Shown here: one piece after another, positions 1,071-10,196 of the stretch
Position numbering within the stretch: the first letter of the stretch is position 1
Layout of the letters: the number at the start of each line of letters is the position of its first letter
Source: Candidatus Delongbacteria bacterium
GTDB taxonomy: Bacteria; Delongbacteria; UBA4055
Reading direction: 5' to 3'
DNA: 11,318 nt
Assembly: GCA_027858795.1 (NCBI GenBank)
Contig: JAQICF010000011.1
Coordinates: 1-11,318, forward strand
Notes under the pieces: generated by a model
What the model was told of the DNA's origin: nothing
Database searches by the model: none
What the model saw: only the letters and a program-made list of their open reading frames with translations
Translations under genes and position numbers: made by a program

Positions 1071-2435
1071 TTACAAAACTTCAACAAGCTCAAGAGCAGC
1101 TTTTCCAATATCCTTATTTGATTCTCCTAAAGCAATAAAACGAATCTCAAACTCTTGAAAAATATCGGGATATTTCTGCATTGCCGAAGATAAAGTTTTA
1201 TTATCCGAGATATCTTTTAAAACTTCCTCATAGATAGTTTTTAATTTATCATCAGCCACAAATAAAGCAAGGTGCAAAGCATCTTGAAACAAATGAAAAA
1301 CATTTCTGTCCAGCAACTTTATTTTTTTATTTGTCTCATTTTTTTCATTAAATTTTTCTACATGCTTGAGGTAATGATTATAAGTAGTATTATCAGTAGA
1401 TTCGAAATCTTCGCCTTCAAAATATCCTAATACCTTCCAGTAATTTTTTCTTTTTTCTTCTTCAGACTCAGCTTCCTCTTTCATTTTAACAACGTTTGGC
1501 AACATACCGATAAAAGCCTCAAAATGACCGGATTCTTCACCAATTCTTACCGTCTCCCTCTCAAGTTCTGTGAAAATTTCCGGTCTAGAATTGAGAGTAT
1601 CCATAAGAGTTGACATATTGATTATTTCTTCTATCATTTGGTCTATAACAGATCTTAATTTTTCATCTGCCCATTCAGATGCTTCTTTTAAACTCTGTGT
1701 TATTGTTATCCCAGATTCTATAAGTAAAGCGAAAGTTTTCCAATATTTTGATCTTGTATTTTTTTCTCCTTCAACTTTATAAGGTAATCCCACTTCTTCA
1801 ATATGAATACCTACCTTATTTGAGACTTGTGCAAGTTTATCAGATTCTTCTCCAGAATATATTACTAGTATTTCAAACCGAGTAAAGACAGTTTTATTGT
1901 TGTTTAATAATTCGTATAATTTATTACCCTTTTTTACTCCTTCGATAATTTCTTTGATGATAGACTTAACTTCTTCATCTGCACTTTTTGAGGCTATCTT
2001 TAAAGAATCTATAATTGTAACCTTCTGGCGAAGTAAATTAGCGAAGATTTTCCAAAACCTACTTCTTTGTTTCGATGTATTATTTATTTCAGTCATGGTA
2101 GTACTCCTTTTTAACTTTTCATTGATCAAACCCATTACGAAATTATATTTCGTGATCTTATCCTCAATGACATCTTTTTGTTTTTCAAGAAGTTCAGCTA
2201 AAACAGATTCATCATCCTGATTATCTACTATCTCTTTTATCTCTGCTAAAGAAAGATCGAACTGCTTGAAGAAATTTATTAGTTTCGCAGTTTCTAAATT
2301 ACTCTCACTATAATACCGGTACTTTGAAAATTCATCCACTTTTGCAGGTATTAAAAGTTCTTTATCCTGATATAGTTTCAACATTTTCTGTGTTAAATTA
2401 GTTAACTTCGAGAATTCTCCGATACTATAGAACAT
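1071..2435 (-). CDS. MerR-type regulator fused to GspF/PilC-like helical repeats (copy 1)
   Basis: A 454-residue protein. Residues 2-70 are a MerR winged helix-turn-helix (YSIGEFSKLTNLT, LKLYQDKELLIP, SKYRYYS, then FDLSLAEIKEIVD), followed by a coiled-coil-like dimerisation helix to about 112. The rest has no known MerR sensor domain. It carries repeated helical units that I read as soluble type II secretion F (GspF/PilC) domains: about 127-208, 231-316 and a diverged one at about 385-454. Each has the family-like layout of an FWK..L/YWK opening, a helix with a 'DEE/DEK' turn, NKL or KTLSSAM, a '.VF/.IF' step and a GEES or GESN motif (195, 299, 437). The membrane helices of real GspF are absent and no Cys is present, so metal sensing is unlikely. 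The ATG is preceded by a degraded GGA, unlike the good site of copy 2. The GspF reading is by eye and needs profile searching. Confidence 0.75.
   Translation of the reverse strand: MFYSIGEFSKLTNLTQKMLKLYQDKELLIPAKVDEFSKYRYYSESNLETAKLINFFKQFDLSLAEIKEIVDNQDDESVLAELLEKQKDVIEDKITKYNFVMGLINEKLKRSTTMTEINNTSKQRSRFWKIFANLLRQKVTIIDSLKIASKSADEEVKSIIKEIIEGVKKGNKLYELLNNNKTVFTRFEILVIYSGEESDKLAQVSNKVGIHIEEVGLPYKVEGEKNTRSKYWKTFALLIESGITITQSLKEASEWADEKLRSVIDQMIEEIINMSTLMDTLNSRPEIFTELERETVRIGEESGHFEAFIGMLPNVVKMKEEAESEEEKRKNYWKVLGYFEGEDFESTDNTTYNHYLKHVEKFNEKNETNKKIKLLDRNVFHLFQDALHLALFVADDKLKTIYEEVLKDISDNKTLSSAMQKYPDIFQEFEIRFIALGESNKDIGKAALELVEVL
2094..2109 (-). promoter_or_regulatory. Internal Shine-Dalgarno and in-frame ATG at the domain junction (copy 1)
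   Basis: On the minus strand AAGGAG (2104-2109) sits 7 nt before an in-frame ATG (2096-2094, Met114). This is a better initiation site than the gene's own start. Met114 falls exactly between the MerR/coiled-coil part and the first GspF-like repeat. Initiation here would give a protein of about 341 residues without the DNA-binding domain. The paralogue has the same arrangement. Confidence 0.5.
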
Positions 2436-2462
2436 TTTACATCCAATTGAATTTTATAATGA

Positions 2463-2478
2463 TTGTGTGATCGCACAA
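2463..2478. promoter_or_regulatory. 16-bp leader dyad (copy 1)
   Basis: TTGTGTGATCGCACAA is palindromic apart from its sixth/eleventh pair. It lies a few bases past the predicted transcription start of the minus-strand gene and is identical at 4011-4026. It could be a second operator or a leader hairpin. Confidence 0.5.
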
Positions 2479-2483
2479 TTACT

Positions 2484-2514
2484 AATGTAAATATTAACCC
2501 AGGGTTAAAGTCAA
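2484..2514 (-). promoter_or_regulatory. MerR-type promoter with 19-bp spacer and spacer palindrome (copy 1)
   Basis: Read on the minus strand, the -35 box is TTGACT (2514-2509), the spacer is 19 bp and the -10 box is TACATT (2489-2484). The spacer begins with the perfect palindrome TTAACCCTGGGTTAA (2508-2494). An overlong 19-20-bp spacer holding a dyad immediately after the -35 is the hallmark of promoters controlled by MerR-family proteins (merT is the type case), where the regulator untwists the DNA. This strongly suggests autoregulation. Confidence 0.7.
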
Positions 2515-2568
2515 GTAATATTTTTTTTAAAATTATTTATTCGAAGATTAATGTTTGTGAAAAATGAC

Positions 2569-2599
2569 CGTAGGGGCGACTCTTGTGGTCGCCCTTACG
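2569..2599. repeat. GTAGGGG-type palindromic repeat (single unit)
   Basis: Arms CGTAGGGGCGAC (2569-2580) and GTCGCCCTTACG (2588-2599) pair over 12 bp with one wobble and a 7-nt loop. It shares sequence with the second unit at 828-855. It sits between the two MerR-type paralogues, about 28 bp beyond the stop of copy 2 and upstream of the promoter of copy 1, where it could also help separate the two transcripts. Confidence 0.75.
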
Positions 2600-2627
2600 A
2601 GATGGCGAGTAAGTCAAAAGATATCAA

Positions 2628-3983
2628 TTACAAAATTTCAACCAGTTCATTTGCAGTTTTTCCGATATCCTTATTTTCTTCTCCGAAAACAATAAACTTA
2701 GTCTCAAACTCCTGAAAAATATCTTGATACTTTTCCATTATTGATGATAATGATTTATTATTCGTTAAATCTTTCAAAATTTCCTTAGATATCTTTTTTA
2801 ATTTATCATCAGCTACAAATAAAGCAAGACGAATTACTTCAGGATAAAAATGAAAATCACTTTTTTTAGGGAGTGGACTTGTTCTTTTGAATTTTTCATT
2901 CATATAATTTATAGACTTACAAATAGAATCATAAATATTACTATCATGGGTTTCAAAATCGATTCCTTCATAATCTCCTATCACTTTCCAGAAATTTTTT
3001 CTTTTATCTGACTCATCCTCAGTTTCCTCTATCATTCTGACGATAATTGGTAATTTAGGGATCATGACATCCAAGTTGCCATTAGCAAACCCAATTCTCA
3101 TCATTTCTATCTCAGGTTCTGTGAAAATTTCCGGTCTGCTTTTAAGATTAGTAAGAAGATCTTTTACACTGTTTATTTCTATCATTTGGGCTGTAACAGA
3201 TTGTACTTTTTCATCTGCCCAAGCACTCGCTACTTCCATACCTTTTGTTACGGTAACCCCTGATTCTAAAAGTAAACCGAAAGTTTTCCAATATTTTGAT
3301 CTCGTATTTTTTTCACCCTCAATATTGTCAGGAAACCCTACTTCTTCGAAAAAGTTACCTAACATATTCGAAGCAATAGCCAGATGGTCTGTTTCTATTG
3401 CTGAGTATATCACCATCCTCTCTAATTCAGTAAAAACAGTTTTGGAGTTGTTTAAGATGTCATGTAATTTATTTCCCTGTTTTACTTCATTAATAATATC
3501 AGGCAATACTGCTTTCAATTCTTCATCAGCACTTTTTCCAGCTGTTTTCAAAGAATCTACTACAGAAATCTCCTGTTTAATTAATTTCGCAAATATTTTC
3601 CAGAATCTACTTCTTAGTTTCGATGTATTATCTATTTCACTCATGATAGTACTCCTTTTTAATTTTTCATTGATCAAACCCATTACGAAATTATATTTCG
3701 TGATCTTGTCCTCAATTACATCTTTCTGCTTTTCAAGTAGTTCAGCTAAAACAGATTCATCATCCTGATTATCTACTATCTCTTTAATCTCTGCTAAAGA
3801 AAGATCGAACTGCTTAAAAAAGATTATAAGGTTTGCTGTTTCAAGGTTTGACTTGTTGTAATACCGGTATTTTGAAAATTCATCTACTTTGGCAGGTATT
3901 AAGAGTTCTTTCTCCTGATACAATTTTAACATTTTAGGAGTTAAATTTGTTAACTTTGAGAATTCTCCGATACTATAATACAT
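2628..3983 (-). CDS. MerR-type regulator fused to GspF/PilC-like helical repeats (copy 2)
   Basis: A 451-residue paralogue of the gene at 1071-2435. The first 112 residues (MerR winged helix and coiled-coil helix) differ at only 7 positions, so both should bind the same operator. The remaining region is much less alike, roughly 55-60% by eye. The same helical repeats are visible: FWKIFAKLIKQ (about 128), YWKTFGLLLESGV (about 231) and RLALFVADDKLK in the C-terminal unit, which ends in a GEENKDIG motif. The GE motifs of repeats 1 and 2 are degraded (YSAIETD, RIGFANG). No membrane helices or signal peptide are seen, so it should be cytoplasmic and DNA-bound. The start is supported by GGAGGT 3 nt upstream and by the MerR N-terminus. 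It diverges from the membrane protein/YehS operon, its most likely neighbouring target. Effector unknown. Confidence 0.75.
   Translation of the reverse strand: MYYSIGEFSKLTNLTPKMLKLYQEKELLIPAKVDEFSKYRYYNKSNLETANLIIFFKQFDLSLAEIKEIVDNQDDESVLAELLEKQKDVIEDKITKYNFVMGLINEKLKRSTIMSEIDNTSKLRSRFWKIFAKLIKQEISVVDSLKTAGKSADEELKAVLPDIINEVKQGNKLHDILNNSKTVFTELERMVIYSAIETDHLAIASNMLGNFFEEVGFPDNIEGEKNTRSKYWKTFGLLLESGVTVTKGMEVASAWADEKVQSVTAQMIEINSVKDLLTNLKSRPEIFTEPEIEMMRIGFANGNLDVMIPKLPIIVRMIEETEDESDKRKNFWKVIGDYEGIDFETHDSNIYDSICKSINYMNEKFKRTSPLPKKSDFHFYPEVIRLALFVADDKLKKISKEILKDLTNNKSLSSIMEKYQDIFQEFETKFIVFGEENKDIGKTANELVEIL
3642..3657 (-). promoter_or_regulatory. Internal Shine-Dalgarno and in-frame ATG at the domain junction (copy 2)
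   Basis: On the minus strand AAGGAG (3652-3657) lies 7 nt before an in-frame ATG (3644-3642, Met114), exactly as in copy 1. The bases between change in a way that keeps spacing and start (ACC to ATC just before the ATG). This suggests either a second start or the scar of an old fusion of two adjacent genes. Confidence 0.5.
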
Positions 3984-3992: not shown

Positions 3993-4010
3993 AAATGAAT
4001 TTTCTGATAT

Positions 4011-4026
4011 TTGTGTGATCGCACAA
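4011..4026. promoter_or_regulatory. 16-bp leader dyad (copy 2)
   Basis: TTGTGTGATCGCACAA, identical to 2463-2478 and at the same distance from the -10 box. The surrounding bases up to the -10 are also identical in both copies, so the whole initial transcribed region is conserved. Confidence 0.5.
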
Positions 4027-4031
4027 TTACT

Positions 4032-4062
4032 AATGTAAATATATACCCAAGGTTCAAGTCAA
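4032..4062 (-). promoter_or_regulatory. MerR-type promoter with 19-bp spacer (copy 2)
   Basis: On the minus strand TTGACT (4062-4057), a 19-bp spacer and TACATT (4037-4032). The spacer dyad is imperfect here but keeps the core AACCYTGGGT shared with copy 1. It lies about 90 bp from the start of the divergent membrane-protein gene, so a bound regulator could act on both directions. Confidence 0.68.
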
Positions 4063-5036: not shown

Positions 5037-5318
5037 ATGAAAATATTCAAATGGAATGCTGAAAAAAACAAATTACTTCTTAAAGAAAGAGGAATTACTT
5101 TTGAAGAGGTTGTGCAGAAGATAGAATCCGGTGCCAGAGTAATTGAAACAGAACATCCGAATAAATCAAAATATCCTAACCAAAAGATATTGATCGTTGA
5201 TGTAGAAGGATACGCATATTTAGTTCCTTGCGTGATTAAAGAAGATGAGTATTTTCTGAAAACAATAATTCCCAGTCGTAAGGCTACAAAAAAATACTTG
5301 GGAGGCTATGATGACTAA
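5037..5318 (+). CDS. BrnT-like toxin of a type II toxin-antitoxin pair
   Basis: A 93-residue basic protein of the BrnT/RelE-like fold type. BrnT toxins are ribonucleases that cut RNA and stop translation until bound by antitoxin. Family features visible: FKWNAEKNKLLLKERGITFEEVV at the N-terminus (BrnT: W..K...N...HG..F.EA; the usual His is Glu here), a central strand run ILIVDVEGYAYLVPCVI, and the C-terminal IIPSRKATKKY that matches the ISARKA....Y signature. The position of each catalytic residue cannot be fixed by eye. The gene has its own strong promoter and overlaps the antitoxin gene by 8 bp (11 if the antitoxin starts at 5308), the normal translational coupling for such pairs. Toxin first, antitoxin second is the BrnT arrangement. 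Confidence 0.75.
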   Translation: MKIFKWNAEKNKLLLKERGITFEEVVQKIESGARVIETEHPNKSKYPNQKILIVDVEGYAYLVPCVIKEDEYFLKTIIPSRKATKKYLGGYDD

Positions 5319-5592
5319 AAAGCAAAAGAAGATAAAACTTGATGCATATGAAAATGAGATATTAGAAGCTTTTGAGGATGGTAGACTTATAATATCGGAA
5401 TCTAAAAATGACTATCAAGAGATAGCTTCAAATACTTTAAGGAAGAATAAAAAGATAAATATAAGAATTTCGGATAACGATCTTTCAGCACTTCAGAGAA
5501 AAGCTGCAAGAGAAGGAGTTCCTTATCAAACTTTGATCGGGAGTGTTCTCCATAAATTTGTAACCGGATTATTAAAAGAAGCAGTAGAGTAA
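5311..5592 (+). CDS. Ribbon-helix-helix antitoxin
   Basis: A 93-residue protein. The C-terminal half is a ribbon-helix-helix DNA-binding domain: strand KINIRIS (about 50-56), helix DLSALQRKAAREG, then VPYQTLIGSVLHKFVTG. This matches the CopG/BrnA-type antitoxins paired with BrnT-like toxins. The acidic N-terminal half (DAYENEILEAFEDG) is the likely toxin-binding part. It should neutralise the protein from the preceding gene and repress the operon through the repeats at 5004-5024. Two ATGs are adjacent (5308 and 5311). GGAGG at 5301-5305 is only 2 nt from the first but 5 nt from the second, so 5311 is chosen. The gene ends 17 bp from the stop of the convergent UvrA-like gene. Confidence 0.78.
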   Translation: MTKKQKKIKLDAYENEILEAFEDGRLIISESKNDYQEIASNTLRKNKKINIRISDNDLSALQRKAAREGVPYQTLIGSVLHKFVTGLLKEAVE

Positions 5593-5609: not shown

Positions 5610-8600
5610 TTACTTAATTATAGAACCGCCTTTCTCACCTGAACCTTTACCCAGTTCAATAGACTTTCCAGCGCAGGAAATTACATCACGATCATGCTCG
5701 GTGATAACTAATGTATTATTCTCTATAATAATTTCAAAAGATTTCAATAGTACCTCAATATCGTGCAGATCCAGTCCAGCTGATGGTTCATCAATAACAA
5801 TAAGATTATTTTTTGGGTTCTTAAGCAGATCTTTGATGATTACAAGTCTTTTTCTTTGCCAAACCGAGAGAGTCGTAAATTTTCTGTTCAGAGAAATATT
5901 CTTTATTCCAAGATCTTTGAAGTATTTATTCAACTTGGATAGCTGATCTTTTTGAATTATCTCAGAGAGTTCTTCTGTAGGTAGATCAAGCAGTTCAGAA
6001 ATATTCTTATCAGAGAGTTTATGTTCAAGTATCTCAGGTTTATACTTCTGTCCTTCACAAACAGAACAAACTTTATCAGTTTCTCTCAAGAAATCAAGAT
6101 TCCCTTTGATATAACCTTTTCCCTGACAGGCAGGGCAATAACTGCTTGATGCTGAAAATAACGACTTTTTGACTTTGTTAGCTTTAGCCAACTTATCGAT
6201 AACAATACTATTCATACCGAAGAAAGAACCTACAGTTATAGAAGAATAATGATCTTCAGCTATAATAATATTTTCAAAGTTTGCATCAACAGATTTACAT
6301 CCTGTAATATTGTTTTTCAGTGACTCAGCGAGGACTTTGAATACGAGAGTAGATTTACCACTACCGCATGGTCCGTGAATGATATTTAAAGTATCGTAAG
6401 AGAAGTCCACATCTATATTCTTTAAATTATGCAGATAAGCACCTAAGACCGAGAAAGTTCCATTGCCTTTAGGAAATACTCGTTTAGTTAATGAATGGTC
6501 GTTAACATAGATTTTTGAAGTGTTGTTGTATTGAACTACTCCATCTTCAAGTTCAACAACATTGTCCGCTGCTGAAACAAATCTTTCTTTCGGATCAGAG
6601 ATAACTACCGTATTTCCAAGCTCCTTCAATTCTTTCAAAGCTTCACTGATAAGATGTTCTTCCTTATAATAAAGTCCGTTAGCAGGTTCATCGAGAATGT
6701 ATAAAATGTCTGTAAGTTTTTCCTCTGCTAACATAGCCAGTCTTAATCTCTGTTTCTCTCCGGAAGATAAAGTATTATATGATCTGCCCAGAGTAATATA
6801 ATCAAGATTAAATTTTTCAAGTCGTTGTAACTTTTTAAGTATCTTTTCAGTCAGCATTTCACTGTTCTTTAACTTAAGTTCATCAAAAAATGAAATTGAA
6901 TTCTTCACACTGAATGATGTTAGTTCACTGATCGATAGTTCGTTGATCTTATAGCTGAGAGCTATTTCGTTTAGTCGTCTTCCACCGCAGACTTGACATT
7001 CTTTCTCAGACAGTAAAGTTTCAAAGTTCTTCTTTTTTAGATTGTGAAGATTTTTCAGATAATCCTCTTTGATCAGATTTGCAAAGCCTTTCCAGGCAGT
7101 CTTAAACTTGTGAACTCCTTTACGGTTAGCTCTCTCGTATGCCCAGTTGACATCGTATTCAATTTCTCCGGTACCGTAGAAAATTATATTAAGCTCTTTC
7201 TCTGTGTAATCCTTAAGTTTTTTCCCCGAAGTAATATTATTCAATTCGAATACAGTATATAAAGTTGCCATGTATTGACCTGTTAACTCAGAGAAGAATT
7301 TTCCCGGTTTGCTTCCATTCATAGCCCCATCTTCAAGTGAAAGTTTGAAGTTTGCCAATTTATTAACATCAACTTCATCAACAATACCTCTTCCACTGCA
7401 ATTCTGACAGGCTCCATTGATATGTAAGAATGAGAACAGTGAATTATTTTTCTGGTGTACAGGAAGTTCTATATCAGTTGAGCTGAATCTTGAGTAGAGC
7501 AATCTGTAAAGTTCGTAGATCCCGCTTACCTGTGCAAATGATATCCTGTCCGCCCGTTTCTTTTCCTGAGAAAGTGAAATTGCAGGACTTAGGTTTTTTA
7601 TCGATCCAAATTCTCCTTTCGATGATGTGCCTATGAATTGCCTTGCGTAAGCCGAAAGTGAAGACAAATATAAATTATTCGCTTCGTTGAAAAGAGTTTC
7701 AGTGATCAGGCTGGTTTTACCTGCACCTTCTCCACCTTTGACAAGAGTGATCTTATTCTTTTCGATCTCAAGGCTGATATTTTTCAGATTATTTGTAGAA
7801 ACATCTTCAAGTTTGATCTTATCCGAGATAATATTTTCTCTGCCAACAATTTTATTATCAAGGTCAAATATCTTAGCGGTCAGAGATCTTTTGCAGTTGA
7901 GTAAACCTTTTACCGAACCCTGATAAAGAACTTCTCCACCATTATCTCCTGCACCGGGACCGAGATCGACGATGTGATCTGCCTGAGAAATGAAATAAGC
8001 ATCATGTTCTATAGCTATGATAGTATTGCCGACCTTGCAGATATCCTCAAGGTTCTTCAGCAGAATTTTTGTATCGTACATTGAAAGACCGGTCGTAGGT
8101 TCATCAAGCAGTATTAGATTATTCTTTGCATTTGTATCTAAGTAGGCTGAAAGTTTTAATCTCTTAGCTTCTCCACCGGATAAAGTTGAAGTCGGTTGAC
8201 CCAGTTTTAAATAGCCCAGTCCAAGCCTGTTAAGAATATCCAGTTTTGAGAATATTTTCTTTTCCTCTCTGAAAAAATCACAAGCTTCTGTGATTTCAAG
8301 CTCAAGGACATCATAAATGCTTTTATCTCTGTATTTTATTTTAAGTACATCATCATGAAATCTTTTACCGTTACAGCTACTGCAGGTCAACTTAATATTA
8401 TCAAGGAAATGCATAGTGATCTCAGTTTCGCCTTTGCCAAGACATTCTTCACATCTGCCTGTTCCTGTGTTGAAAGAGAATGCCGTTGCAGGTAGAGAAT
8501 CAGGGAGTTTTGAGAAGAGCTTTCGTATATCTTCAAATATCCCAGTGTATGTTGCAGCATTACTTCGGGAGTTTTTTCCGGGTTGCTTTGCATCTATCTC

Positions 8601-10196
8601 AACTACATTTTTGAATTTTTTAGCAACTACTCCGCTAACAAGGCTTGATTTTCCTGCTCCGGATACTCCAGTTACTACATTCAAGCTGTTTAATTTAAAA
8701 TCTACATCAATATTTTTCAGGTTATTTATATTTGCACCTTTTACCGACAGATATTCGGAGTCATTTTGAGCAGGTTGTTTAAAAACTATCTCGTTGTTTA
8801 ATTCTTTTTGCGTGATGGATTCCGATTCGGACAACCATAGGAGGTTGTCCCTACGGATAAAATCGCTTGTATTACCGTTGAATAATAATTTGCCTCCGAG
8901 GTAACCTGCTCCGGGACCGATATCAATAATATGATCAGCTGCTAAAATAGTTTCCTTATCATGCTCAACGACAATGACAGAATTTCCTCTGCTGACAAGT
9001 TCTTTGAAAACAGTTATAAGCTTAAAGTTGTCAGTTCCATGTAAACCAATCGATGGTTCATCAAAGATATACATGATCCCTGACATTTTACTATCGAGTA
9101 CTGAAGCGATTCGCAATCTTTGAGACTCACCACCTGATAAAGTATTCGATCTTCTTTCAGGAGTAAGATAACCTAATCCCAGATTGATCAGCGTTTGACA
9201 CTTTTTCAAGATAGCTGAGAATATTTCTTTCTGAACTTCATCTTTTGATTTGATAGCTGTGAAAGTATCATTTAACTCTGAAAATGTTGTGCCTGTGTAA
9301 TATGGAAAATTCTTTTCATTGAAAGTTACTTCCAAGGATTCTTTCTTAAGTCCTGAACCGTTACAATGAGAACATGTTTTCGATGAAACAAATTTAAGAA
9401 TATTCTTATTACGATCTCTCTTAAGTATCTCGGACATTATAGGAATAATACCTTTATAGTATCCTTCATCTCTCGGTTTTGCAGTGATACCCACCCATTT
9501 CATCCTCGATTCAAGAGTATGTTTCCCGAAAGCGATTTTGATCTTATCACTGCCGTGAAAAATTACATTTCTCTGATAATCAGTTAATTCATTGAAAGGA
9601 ATATCAACGTTGAAACCTTCACTCCTGCAAACCTGATCAAGCACATCAATTGTTACCTGAGAATAAATTGTATATCCATCTTTCAGTGTGATTTTGAGCG
9701 CTCTTTCTCTGAGAGTTTTAGTTTCATCTTCGATAAGAAGTTTCTCATCGACATATTCCTCTTCTCCGAGACCTTTGCAATACCCACATTGACCTGCTGG
9801 ATTATTAAATGAGAACATTCCACGGGAGAGTTTAATGTTTTTATCGGGGGTCTTTCCACAACGGGCAAATATGAGTCTTAAAAGGTCTGTAATGCCACTC
9901 AGAGTTCCTGCTGTAGATCTAAGATCACCTGTTATAGTTTTCTGCTTGATAGATACTACCGGTCTTATACCAGAAATTTCAGCATCAACTTCACCTGTCT
10001 TAGCAAGATACTGCCTTGCGTAAACAGAGAAAGATTCGAAGAAGCGTTTGTTCGCTTCCTTTTCAATAATATCTGCGACAAGGCTGGATTTCCCTGAACC
10101 TGAAACACCTGTGATACATACAAATTTATTGTGAGGTATCTCAACAGAGAAATCTTTAAGATTATGTATATGTGCGTTTTTAATTTTTAAATACAT
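5610..10196 (-). CDS. Tandem UvrA-like ATPase (four ABC domains, UvrA2-type, no UvrB-binding domain)
   Basis: 1528 residues: two UvrA-like units in one chain (about 1-780 and 790-1528). UvrA finds DNA damage for excision repair. Walker A motifs are at 30 (GVSGSGKSS), 510, about 820 and 1275; Walker B/DEP at 379, 698, 1169 and 1469. CxxC zinc pairs lie at 137/275, 582/605, 930/1067 and 1354/1377. In both units the chain runs directly from the Q-loop region to the FSF..(N)GxC zinc segment (about 113-140 and 903-933), so the UvrB-binding insertion of ordinary UvrA is missing, as in UvrA2/DrrC. ATPase domains 1 and 2 are intact (LSGGE at 353 and 672; EHD at 411 and 730). Domain 3 has LSSGE and lost the H-loop (ISDPKE, 1199-1204). 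Domain 4 lost the signature (LSVWQ, 1443) but keeps EHD. Likely role: UvrB-independent DNA-damage or drug tolerance. No Shine-Dalgarno is seen; the start matches the family. Confidence 0.9.
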   Translation of the reverse strand: MYLKIKNAHIHNLKDFSVEIPHNKFVCITGVSGSGKSSLVADIIEKEANKRFFESFSVYARQYLAKTGEVDAEISGIRPVVSIKQKTITGDLRSTAGTLSGITDLLRLIFARCGKTPDKNIKLSRGMFSFNNPAGQCGYCKGLGEEEYVDEKLLIEDETKTLRERALKITLKDGYTIYSQVTIDVLDQVCRSEGFNVDIPFNELTDYQRNVIFHGSDKIKIAFGKHTLESRMKWVGITAKPRDEGYYKGIIPIMSEILKRDRNKNILKFVSSKTCSHCNGSGLKKESLEVTFNEKNFPYYTGTTFSELNDTFTAIKSKDEVQKEIFSAILKKCQTLINLGLGYLTPERRSNTLSGGESQRLRIASVLDSKMSGIMYIFDEPSIGLHGTDNFKLITVFKELVSRGNSVIVVEHDKETILAADHIIDIGPGAGYLGGKLLFNGNTSDFIRRDNLLWLSESESITQKELNNEIVFKQPAQNDSEYLSVKGANINNLKNIDVDFKLNSLNVVTGVSGAGKSSLVSGVVAKKFKNVVEIDAKQPGKNSRSNAATYTGIFEDIRKLFSKLPDSLPATAFSFNTGTGRCEECLGKGETEITMHFLDNIKLTCSSCNGKRFHDDVLKIKYRDKSIYDVLELEITEACDFFREEKKIFSKLDILNRLGLGYLKLGQPTSTLSGGEAKRLKLSAYLDTNAKNNLILLDEPTTGLSMYDTKILLKNLEDICKVGNTIIAIEHDAYFISQADHIVDLGPGAGDNGGEVLYQGSVKGLLNCKRSLTAKIFDLDNKIVGRENIISDKIKLEDVSTNNLKNISLEIEKNKITLVKGGEGAGKTSLITETLFNEANNLYLSSLSAYARQFIGTSSKGEFGSIKNLSPAISLSQEKKRADRISFAQVSGIYELYRLLYSRFSSTDIELPVHQKNNSLFSFLHINGACQNCSGRGIVDEVDVNKLANFKLSLEDGAMNGSKPGKFFSELTGQYMATLYTVFELNNITSGKKLKDYTEKELNIIFYGTGEIEYDVNWAYERANRKGVHKFKTAWKGFANLIKEDYLKNLHNLKKKNFETLLSEKECQVCGGRRLNEIALSYKINELSISELTSFSVKNSISFFDELKLKNSEMLTEKILKKLQRLEKFNLDYITLGRSYNTLSSGEKQRLRLAMLAEEKLTDILYILDEPANGLYYKEEHLISEALKELKELGNTVVISDPKERFVSAADNVVELEDGVVQYNNTSKIYVNDHSLTKRVFPKGNGTFSVLGAYLHNLKNIDVDFSYDTLNIIHGPCGSGKSTLVFKVLAESLKNNITGCKSVDANFENIIIAEDHYSSITVGSFFGMNSIVIDKLAKANKVKKSLFSASSSYCPACQGKGYIKGNLDFLRETDKVCSVCEGQKYKPEILEHKLSDKNISELLDLPTEELSEIIQKDQLSKLNKYFKDLGIKNISLNRKFTTLSVWQRKRLVIIKDLLKNPKNNLIVIDEPSAGLDLHDIEVLLKSFEIIIENNTLVITEHDRDVISCAGKSIELGKGSGEKGGSIIK
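8829..8855. repeat. GTAGGGG-family palindrome inside the UvrA-like gene
   Basis: GGACAACC (8829-8836) and GGTTGTCC (8843-8850) form a perfect 8-bp stem with a 6-nt loop. On the coding strand it begins CGTAGGGACAACC, 10 of 13 bases like the start of the 2569 element. It is in frame and encodes residues about 448-457 (RRDNLLWLSE) in the linker after ATPase domain 1. Confidence 0.6.

Follow-up and report, generated by a model that had tools for sequence, protein, structure and literature searches.

What business has the cytoplasmic domain of a pilus or secretion platform protein behind a DNA-binding domain? The question is raised by a stretch of 11,318 nucleotides (the window) from Candidatus Delongbacteria bacterium, contig JAQICF010000011.1 (GCA_027858795.1), in which two tandem genes each encode a MerR-type winged helix followed by three soluble repeats of the GspF/PilC (T2SSF) kind. 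The reading that we favour, with a rough probability of 0.42, is that the product would be a MerR regulator of its own promoter, with the three GspF/PilC-type domains as its sensor, docking on an ATPase of the GspE/PilB type. The two genes are these:

2628-3983, minus strand: MerR-T2SSF fusion gene, upstream copy, 451 residues (open frame and Pfam)
1071-2435, minus strand: MerR-T2SSF fusion gene, downstream copy, 454 residues (open frame and Pfam)

Their products are 65% identical over full length. The initial annotation had taken 1071-3983 to hold two tandem MerR genes with an N-terminal winged helix, and Pfam bears this out, with MerR_1 (PF13411) occupying residues 3-72 of both (E 5e-14 and 6.7e-13, above cut-off). 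For residues 114-454 it had proposed kinship with PF00482 (T2SSF), and the profile match there is a strong one: E 6.6e-31 and 107 bits for the 1071-2435 protein, E 2.8e-16 and 60 bits for the 2628-3983 protein, the cut-off being 25.2, in each case over three stretches called at a lax per-stretch limit of E<=5. The best match covers positions 4-90 of the 125 in the profile, which we take to be the cytoplasmic helical part and not a membrane helix. Among NCBIfam models the T2SSF part matches HofC, GspF and PilC and the MerR part MerR regulators, all far under the cut-offs of those full-length families. In the MerR family the linker helix is the coiled coil of the dimer, and one is expected here too in the following layout:

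2208-2435, minus strand: MerR winged-helix DNA-binding domain, downstream copy, residues 1-76 (PF13411 at 3-72; BmrR profile match at residues 2-111)
2100-2207, minus strand: linker helix, downstream copy, residues 77-112, expected dimer coiled coil (the BmrR match reaches residue 111)
1800-2066, minus strand: T2SSF repeat 1, downstream copy, residues 124-212 (Pfam, hhalign)
1488-1754, minus strand: T2SSF repeat 2, downstream copy, residues 228-316 (Pfam, hhalign)
1074-1451, minus strand: T2SSF repeat 3, downstream copy, residues 329-454, about 35 of them inserted (Pfam, hhalign)
3348-3614, minus strand: T2SSF repeat 1, upstream copy (Pfam, hhalign)
3039-3302, minus strand: T2SSF repeat 2, upstream copy (Pfam, hhalign)
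2631-3002, minus strand: T2SSF repeat 3, upstream copy (Pfam, hhalign)

How good is the likeness to GspF and PilC? With family profiles from 24 proteins, hhalign against the N-terminal T2SSF domain of PilC gave probabilities of 97.3, 99.3 and 97.0 for repeats 1, 2 and 3, the MerR part serving as control at 0.3. Repeat 2 is the most PilC-like and repeat 3 the least, its alignment with the N-terminal PilC domain extending over 59 columns only and its probability with the C-terminal one being 16.5. Via repeat 1 or 2 the profile of the whole family reaches solved PilC and EpsF/GspF domains (3jc8_Ca, 1.7e-12; 2vmb, 1.6e-5; 2whn, 3.2e-4; 5nbg, 5.9e-4). Since the maximum 19-residue hydropathy of the fusions, 0.83-1.64 in 24 of 24, stays well under the 2.74 and 2.85 of two Delongbacteria PilC proteins, the repeats are without a predicted membrane helix; three GspF/PilC-like repeats lacking membrane helices is what had been proposed, and PF00482 matches, hhalign and hydropathy agree on it. 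The PilC values come from two loci; of three more, two yielded no protein and one the adjacent ATPase. Of the motifs which the repeats had been said to share, the repeats themselves hold up, and a constant GE motif does not: it is lost from repeats 1 and 2 of the 2628-3983 protein, and its E is retained in 4/9, 7/9 and 8/9 of repeats 1, 2 and 3 respectively in nine members sampled from the 24. Four database proteins (P0015, P0020, P0021 and P0023) carry within repeat 1 an in-frame insertion of about 23 residues that copies adjoining sequence.

A tree of 61 T2SSF domains places the 27 repeats of nine fusions in one group (support 100/97), apart from the sampled N- and C-terminal PilC domains, with repeats 1, 2 and 3 each forming a group (98/90, 98/94 and 99/96). 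On account of these groupings it can be suggested, with the caution appropriate to a weakly resolved, midpoint-rooted tree of 92 columns with long branches flagged, that one captured domain was tripled before the family diversified. What the fusion shares with the GspF/PilC platform is the T2SSF (PF00482) cytoplasmic domain; it differs in having three repeats rather than two, no membrane helices where the platform has three, a DNA-binding domain, and a location outside any pil or gsp operon. Bundles like Cyto1 of PulF are, according to an excerpt of PMC10790770, also present in the V-ATPase C subunit and SpoIIIAB, and the C subunit, a single chain with three such bundles, is described there as a socket on a rotary ATPase. 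Neither is of MerR type, in which they are unlike the fusion.

Could the fusion be an artefact of annotation or assembly that joined two genes? Nothing beyond the rarity of the domain combination speaks for this, and we regard it as refuted by the recurrence of both domains in one frame in material from several sources. Other MerR-T2SSF fusions, a search for which the initial annotation had suggested, were found readily: 25 of 36 relatives from a protein search (the window's two included) have both domains in one frame, 5 being T2SSF alone and 6 other, and a profile search built on 24 of the 25 gave 49 matches, comprising 26 with both domains, 6 with T2SSF alone, 12 other MerR proteins and 5 PilC-like ones. 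Both searches scored only the approximately 8000 candidates with the most common words. Five genome contigs also encode the fusion, one of them broken by the contig end. Database entries bear both domain labels, some under the name ‘type II secretion system F family protein’ and some under ‘MerR family transcriptional regulator’. The statement that no MerR protein with such an effector had been described is in keeping with the literature, insofar as none with T2SSF or GspF was found among the titles listed, in a coverage without most subscription papers.

The family is a conserved one and, to judge by the sequence searches made, is found in the Delongbacteria phylum and nowhere else. Of the six fusion records with an organism name, five are Candidatus Delongbacteria and one (P0013) is labelled Clostridiales; the P0013 protein is also encoded at locus L004 of genome G004, which is grouped in the same phylum as G001. 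Five of the phylum's 13 genomes have the fusion; in the other eight the matches are no more than partial and fall on frames of PilC or MerR type. A scan of 84,980 species genomes, resting on two exact peptide patterns, met the fusion at 5 of the 80 loci kept of 130. At E<=1e-45 it was not found in 392 genomes of the phylum of G014, whose locus is titled Planctomycetota, nor in 392 genomes from the phylum to which G015 (Spirochaetales) belongs. An empty result of this kind calls for a positive control, and the identical profile gives 2.6e-104 or better in all five genomes with the fusion. Viral contigs yielded no fusion (2 loci, MerR part only), none of 35 plasmid records spans 80% of the query, and 7 phage records contain none, and with no fusion among the viral contigs, plasmids or phages searched an origin from a mobile element was rejected.

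What does the regulator regulate? Each fusion gene of the window has ahead of it an element with the hallmarks of a MerR-type promoter:

4032-4062, minus strand: MerR-type promoter/operator, upstream copy, TTGACT, 19-base-pair spacer with AACC-NNN-GGT dyad, TACATT (from sequence)
2484-2514, minus strand: MerR-type promoter/operator, downstream copy, with the 15-base-pair dyad TTAACCCTGGGTTAA in its spacer at 2494-2508 (from sequence)

The promoter TTGACTTgAACCNNNGGTNNATaTTTACATT lies ahead of every fusion gene whose upstream sequence was readable, seven in all (the two of the window and those of loci L001-L005), and in each it consists of a -35, a spacer of exactly 19 base pairs and a -10, with the AACC-NNN-GGT dyad inside the spacer near the -35. 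Within the element 26 of 36 columns are invariant across the seven, as compared with 0 of 43 just upstream. Two exact sites occur in the window; 200 shuffles average 0.00 even with 3 mismatches allowed. An excerpt of PMC9909328 gives 19-20 base pairs as the spacer of MerR-regulated promoters, and as a control a TTGAC-N18-20-TA promoter was present at 9 of 11 non-fusion MerR loci checked (of 75), with dyads of their own by eye. With as many as 2 mismatches tolerated, the element is present once per genome in the five that have a fusion, always at the fusion gene, and is absent from the other eight, an outcome that is the same with the strict and a looser search pattern; the reversed control gives 0 with the former and 2 matches in one genome with the latter. 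The simplest account of an element that occurs solely at the fusion gene in these genomes is a regulator that most probably acts on its own promoter and on hardly anything else, though more diverged sites may make up a wider regulon.

Between the -10 and the start codon there is a further symmetrical feature in each copy:

2462-2479, minus strand: inverted repeat, downstream copy, ATTGTG-N6-CACAAT, perfect (from sequence)
4010-4027, minus strand: inverted repeat, upstream copy, ATTGTG-N6-CACAA (from sequence)

The downstream version is identical in L001, variant in L002 and L005, and not in L003 or L004. Allowing one mismatch, eight genomes have 32 sites as against 22 for the reversed pattern, the sole exact match being at the fusion gene of G001; no regulon under this inverted repeat was seen, and the idea was dropped.

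The two parts of the protein have diverged to different degrees. Over 21 pairs from 7 genes the MerR part has a mean identity of 88% and a nonsynonymous divergence (dN) of 0.07, compared with 55-60% and 0.28-0.35 for the three repeats. In 13 of the 21 pairs synonymous change in the MerR part has reached saturation, so that its conservation does not come from gene conversion, which was rejected as its source. Promoter and DNA-binding part are, as far as these comparisons reach, held fixed as the sensor diversifies: one DNA target, with a diversifying sensor. In several gene pairs repeats 2 and 3 have lower synonymous divergence than the MerR part, hinting at recombination or shuffling among repeat copies.

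A MerR protein that probably controls its own promoter and has a large C-terminal effector calls to mind regulators of the BmrR and TipA type, and the points of resemblance are these: the MerR domain is N-terminal, the promoter has a 19-base-pair spacer with a dyad, and the top solved-structure matches of the family profile are to BmrR (8.7e-13). Moreover, among the 12 non-fusion MerR relatives from the profile search nine carry GyrI-like PF06445 and one (P0032) carries TipAS (PF07739). The fusion differs from these regulators in that its effector is three T2SSF domains and neither GyrI-like nor TipAS, and in having no consistently linked efflux gene. The main rival to our reading is of this kind. 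It supposes a TipA-like ligand trap acting at its own promoter, in which a small molecule or peptide is the ligand of the repeats and a short product starting at Met114 acts as a sink, as TipAS does beside TipAL. An excerpt of PMC7762955 describes TipA as a minimal autoregulated system in which one gene with two start codons gives the full regulator and a ligand-binding short form. Possible internal starts at the corresponding place are:

2094-2108, minus strand: possible internal start, downstream copy, AGGAGT ahead of the ATG at residue 114 (scan for Shine-Dalgarno-ATG motifs)
3642-3656, minus strand: possible internal start, upstream copy, AGGAGT ahead of the ATG at residue 114 (scan for Shine-Dalgarno-ATG motifs)

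In 6 of the 7 fusion genes a Shine-Dalgarno sequence lies 6-7 bases ahead of this in-frame ATG, which is at the domain junction and, by the motif set used, is the sole such combination inside those genes. Met114 is present in 21 of 24 aligned proteins, and four of the five T2SSF-only database proteins (P0017, P0025, P0028 and P0030) start at that ATG, on contigs of 1.1-1.8 kb from which the true start may be cut off. A solitary operator site and a fast-diverging sensor would suit a ligand trap as well. Yet Met114 is conserved no better than several of its linker neighbours (of 24, L108 has 23, E116 22, N118 21, S121 23 and K122 21), L003 has GAA in place of the ATG, and the chance of a Shine-Dalgarno sequence at this point is 0.04-0.30 per gene under its own codon use, the genes being related and the statistics weak. 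At E<=5 no protein of the window matches PF07739. What GspF domains bind is protein, and they are not known to bind drugs, which also counts against a ligand trap, and on balance we consider it unlikely, at perhaps one chance in a few.

How, then, would a sensor made of GspF/PilC-type domains work if it docks on an ATPase? MerR proteins function as dimers, so with three repeats per chain each regulator would have six T2SSF domains of six helices each, as many domains as a trimer of platform proteins presents to a GspE/PilB ring with its six N2 domains. Docking may be on the short GspE-like paralogues considered below or on the cell's own PilB, and docking, or its loss, would alter how the MerR dimer bends the promoter with its 19-base-pair spacer and so reset the amount of regulator. 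The sequences show the fusion itself, the absence of membrane helices, the conserved promoter with its one site per fusion genome and the fast-changing sensor; that the protein dimerises, regulates itself in living cells and docks on an ATPase, and what its output is for, we infer. Such contacts are not without parallel: in an AlphaFold2 model of PulF on PulE, the latter built without N1, each Cyto domain contacts one N2 domain (PMC10790770, in excerpt), and a review (PMC10191384, likewise in excerpt) reports direct binding between platform and extension ATPase for several systems and pictures six Cyt domains on six subunits.

Are there candidates for the partner? GspE-type ATPases of about 400 residues with the N2 and ATPase parts and without N1 (PF05157), in which they are unlike GspE and PilB proper, number three in G001, two in G002 and one partial in G003, and were not found in the other 10 of the 13 genomes of the phylum. 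Carriers are 3 of 5 fusion genomes as against 0 of 8 others (10/286 = 0.035, by hand arithmetic on draft genomes). In G003 the partial N1-less T2SSE gene begins 204 base pairs after the end of the fusion of L003, in the same orientation, and is cut short by the contig end (T2SSE match 4.8e-6); its 82 residues match the short family (32/74) better than the PilB of the same genome (24/71). Among the 120 matches listed of 7341 in the database, 24 are of the short kind by our own count (398-414 residues, no PF05157). Contigs sized 10461 and 8909 occur under the same source label in both the fusion and the short-ATPase records, against a background of 30 distinct fusion sizes and 21 distinct short-list sizes, with 0 of 93 canonical PilB records agreeing in size with fusion records; fusion and short ATPase are probably on one contig in two cases further to L003.

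The short protein at L162:6245-7444 shares 47-50% identity with PilB-type proteins in 12 of the 13 genomes and aligns with solved PilB/GspE over residues 5-394, with no PF05157. In an alignment of 27 short rows, in which P0063 appears twice, N2 is more conserved (0.60) than the ATPase core (0.47), the reverse of the order in 24 canonical PilB proteins (0.79 vs 0.86); the latter, every fourth of the 93, are more closely related, and only the order within each set is to be compared. Another departure from canonical GspE/PilB is the replacement of the Walker B glutamate in 12 of the 27 rows as against 0 of 24. Because of this replacement and the conservation of N2 above that of the core, the ring would be partly degenerate as an ATPase. 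A bolder version of our reading, which at about a quarter is improbable as it stands though worth stating, has a pilus or secretion motor pair moved from the membrane to DNA, the six membrane-free GspF domains of a MerR dimer sitting one to each N2 domain on an N1-less GspE-like ring and conveying its presence or state to transcription.

In L162:3728-9850 and L163:2-3640 tandem N1-less GspE-like ATPases are interleaved with lipoprotein-like six-bladed beta-propeller proteins; with 5-33 matches in every one of the 13 genomes, linkage to such lipoproteins was uninformative. Two apparent additions to the short group were rejected, G003:C258 being PilT-like by eye and a T2SSE of 472-475 residues in G007, whose identity to the short query is 33%, having an extra N-terminal part, canonical motifs and, by eye, a secretin-like neighbour.

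That the cell's own PilB may be bound invites a different thought. All five fusion genomes encode a separate two-domain PilC-type protein, in each its contig also carries a T2SSE gene of PilB type, and the repeats have kept a PilC-like core. Might the repeats, in the full or the short product, rival PilC in binding PilB and thereby hold back the building of pili, with the MerR part only setting the dose? A mimic of one conserved partner would hardly be expected to form a clade of its own (100/97) and diverge fast, as the repeats do, nor do pil genes accompany the fusion in the window or L001-L005, and we find such antagonism distinctly less probable than the ligand trap.

Several observations weigh against a sensor that docks on an ATPase. 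Operator sites were found at the fusion's own gene alone, some repeats lack the GE motif that is characteristic of GspF, and the short ATPase adjoins the fusion only once and did not turn up in G004 and G005, both of them drafts split into many contigs, agreement in contig size being an indirect sign of a shared contig. Bar the lone partial T2SSE gene of L003, no pilus or secretion operon is beside the fusion in the window or L001-L005, a check for which translations were read in the window, L001, L002, L004 and L005, with Pfam on part of the neighbours.

Neighbourhoods are in general a poor guide here. UvrA, DUF1456 and phosphatase neighbours are common to the window and L001, which has a single fusion copy, and L002, whose contig ends inside the fusion, has the UvrA and DUF1456 neighbours by eye; ABC-2 transporter genes precede the fusion in L003 and L005, and the neighbours in L004 are different again. 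Given this variation, reasoning from operon or neighbourhood was dropped. The window's UvrA-like protein has 1528 residues with two stretches of UvrA DNA-binding domain and a relative of 1529 residues in L001, and also matches, under cut-off, the excinuclease model PRK00635 of 1809 positions (NCBIfam). In PADLOC, a search for defence systems, it gives stronger mad3/mad8 and other ATPase matches, the MerR part weak mad1 matches, and the short ATPase one weak mad8 match. The remaining features of the window are:

5610-10196, minus strand: the UvrA-like protein
5037-5592, plus strand: two short overlapping genes, BrnT toxin-like and BrnA/CopG antitoxin-like, under Pfam cut-offs
770-802, 830-855 and 2569-2594: dispersed repeat, approximately GGGCGAC..TTGTGG.CGCCC, the last copy lying between the two fusion genes

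A stretch resembling this repeat is also in L162 near 1975, by eye. A sceptic might see in all this a family peculiar to the lineage that does little and persists because it is duplicated in the vicinity of toxin-antitoxin and repeat elements. Tandem copies, variable neighbours and dispersed repeats between genes would be expected of it, as would toxin-antitoxin-like genes near the fusion, which L004 and L005 have as well as the window. A dN of 0.07 in the MerR part beside high synonymous divergence, and a promoter invariant at 26 of 36 columns, are not, and we judge it very improbable.

The initial annotation had suggested that the secretion-platform fold was reused as a soluble sensor or protein-interaction module. 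Reuse in a soluble regulator finds support in three features of sequence: membrane helices are missing, a MerR domain is present and the promoter is of MerR type. The cytoplasmic domain of GspF/PilC, which couples filament and motor, is here seen as a soluble module of a transcription factor, and the MerR family acquires a new effector domain. If a GspE-type ATPase is indeed the partner, Delongbacteria would have provided a compact, soluble pair whose promoter reporter could serve to read the contact between GspF and GspE, itself poorly understood, with neither membranes nor pili in the way.

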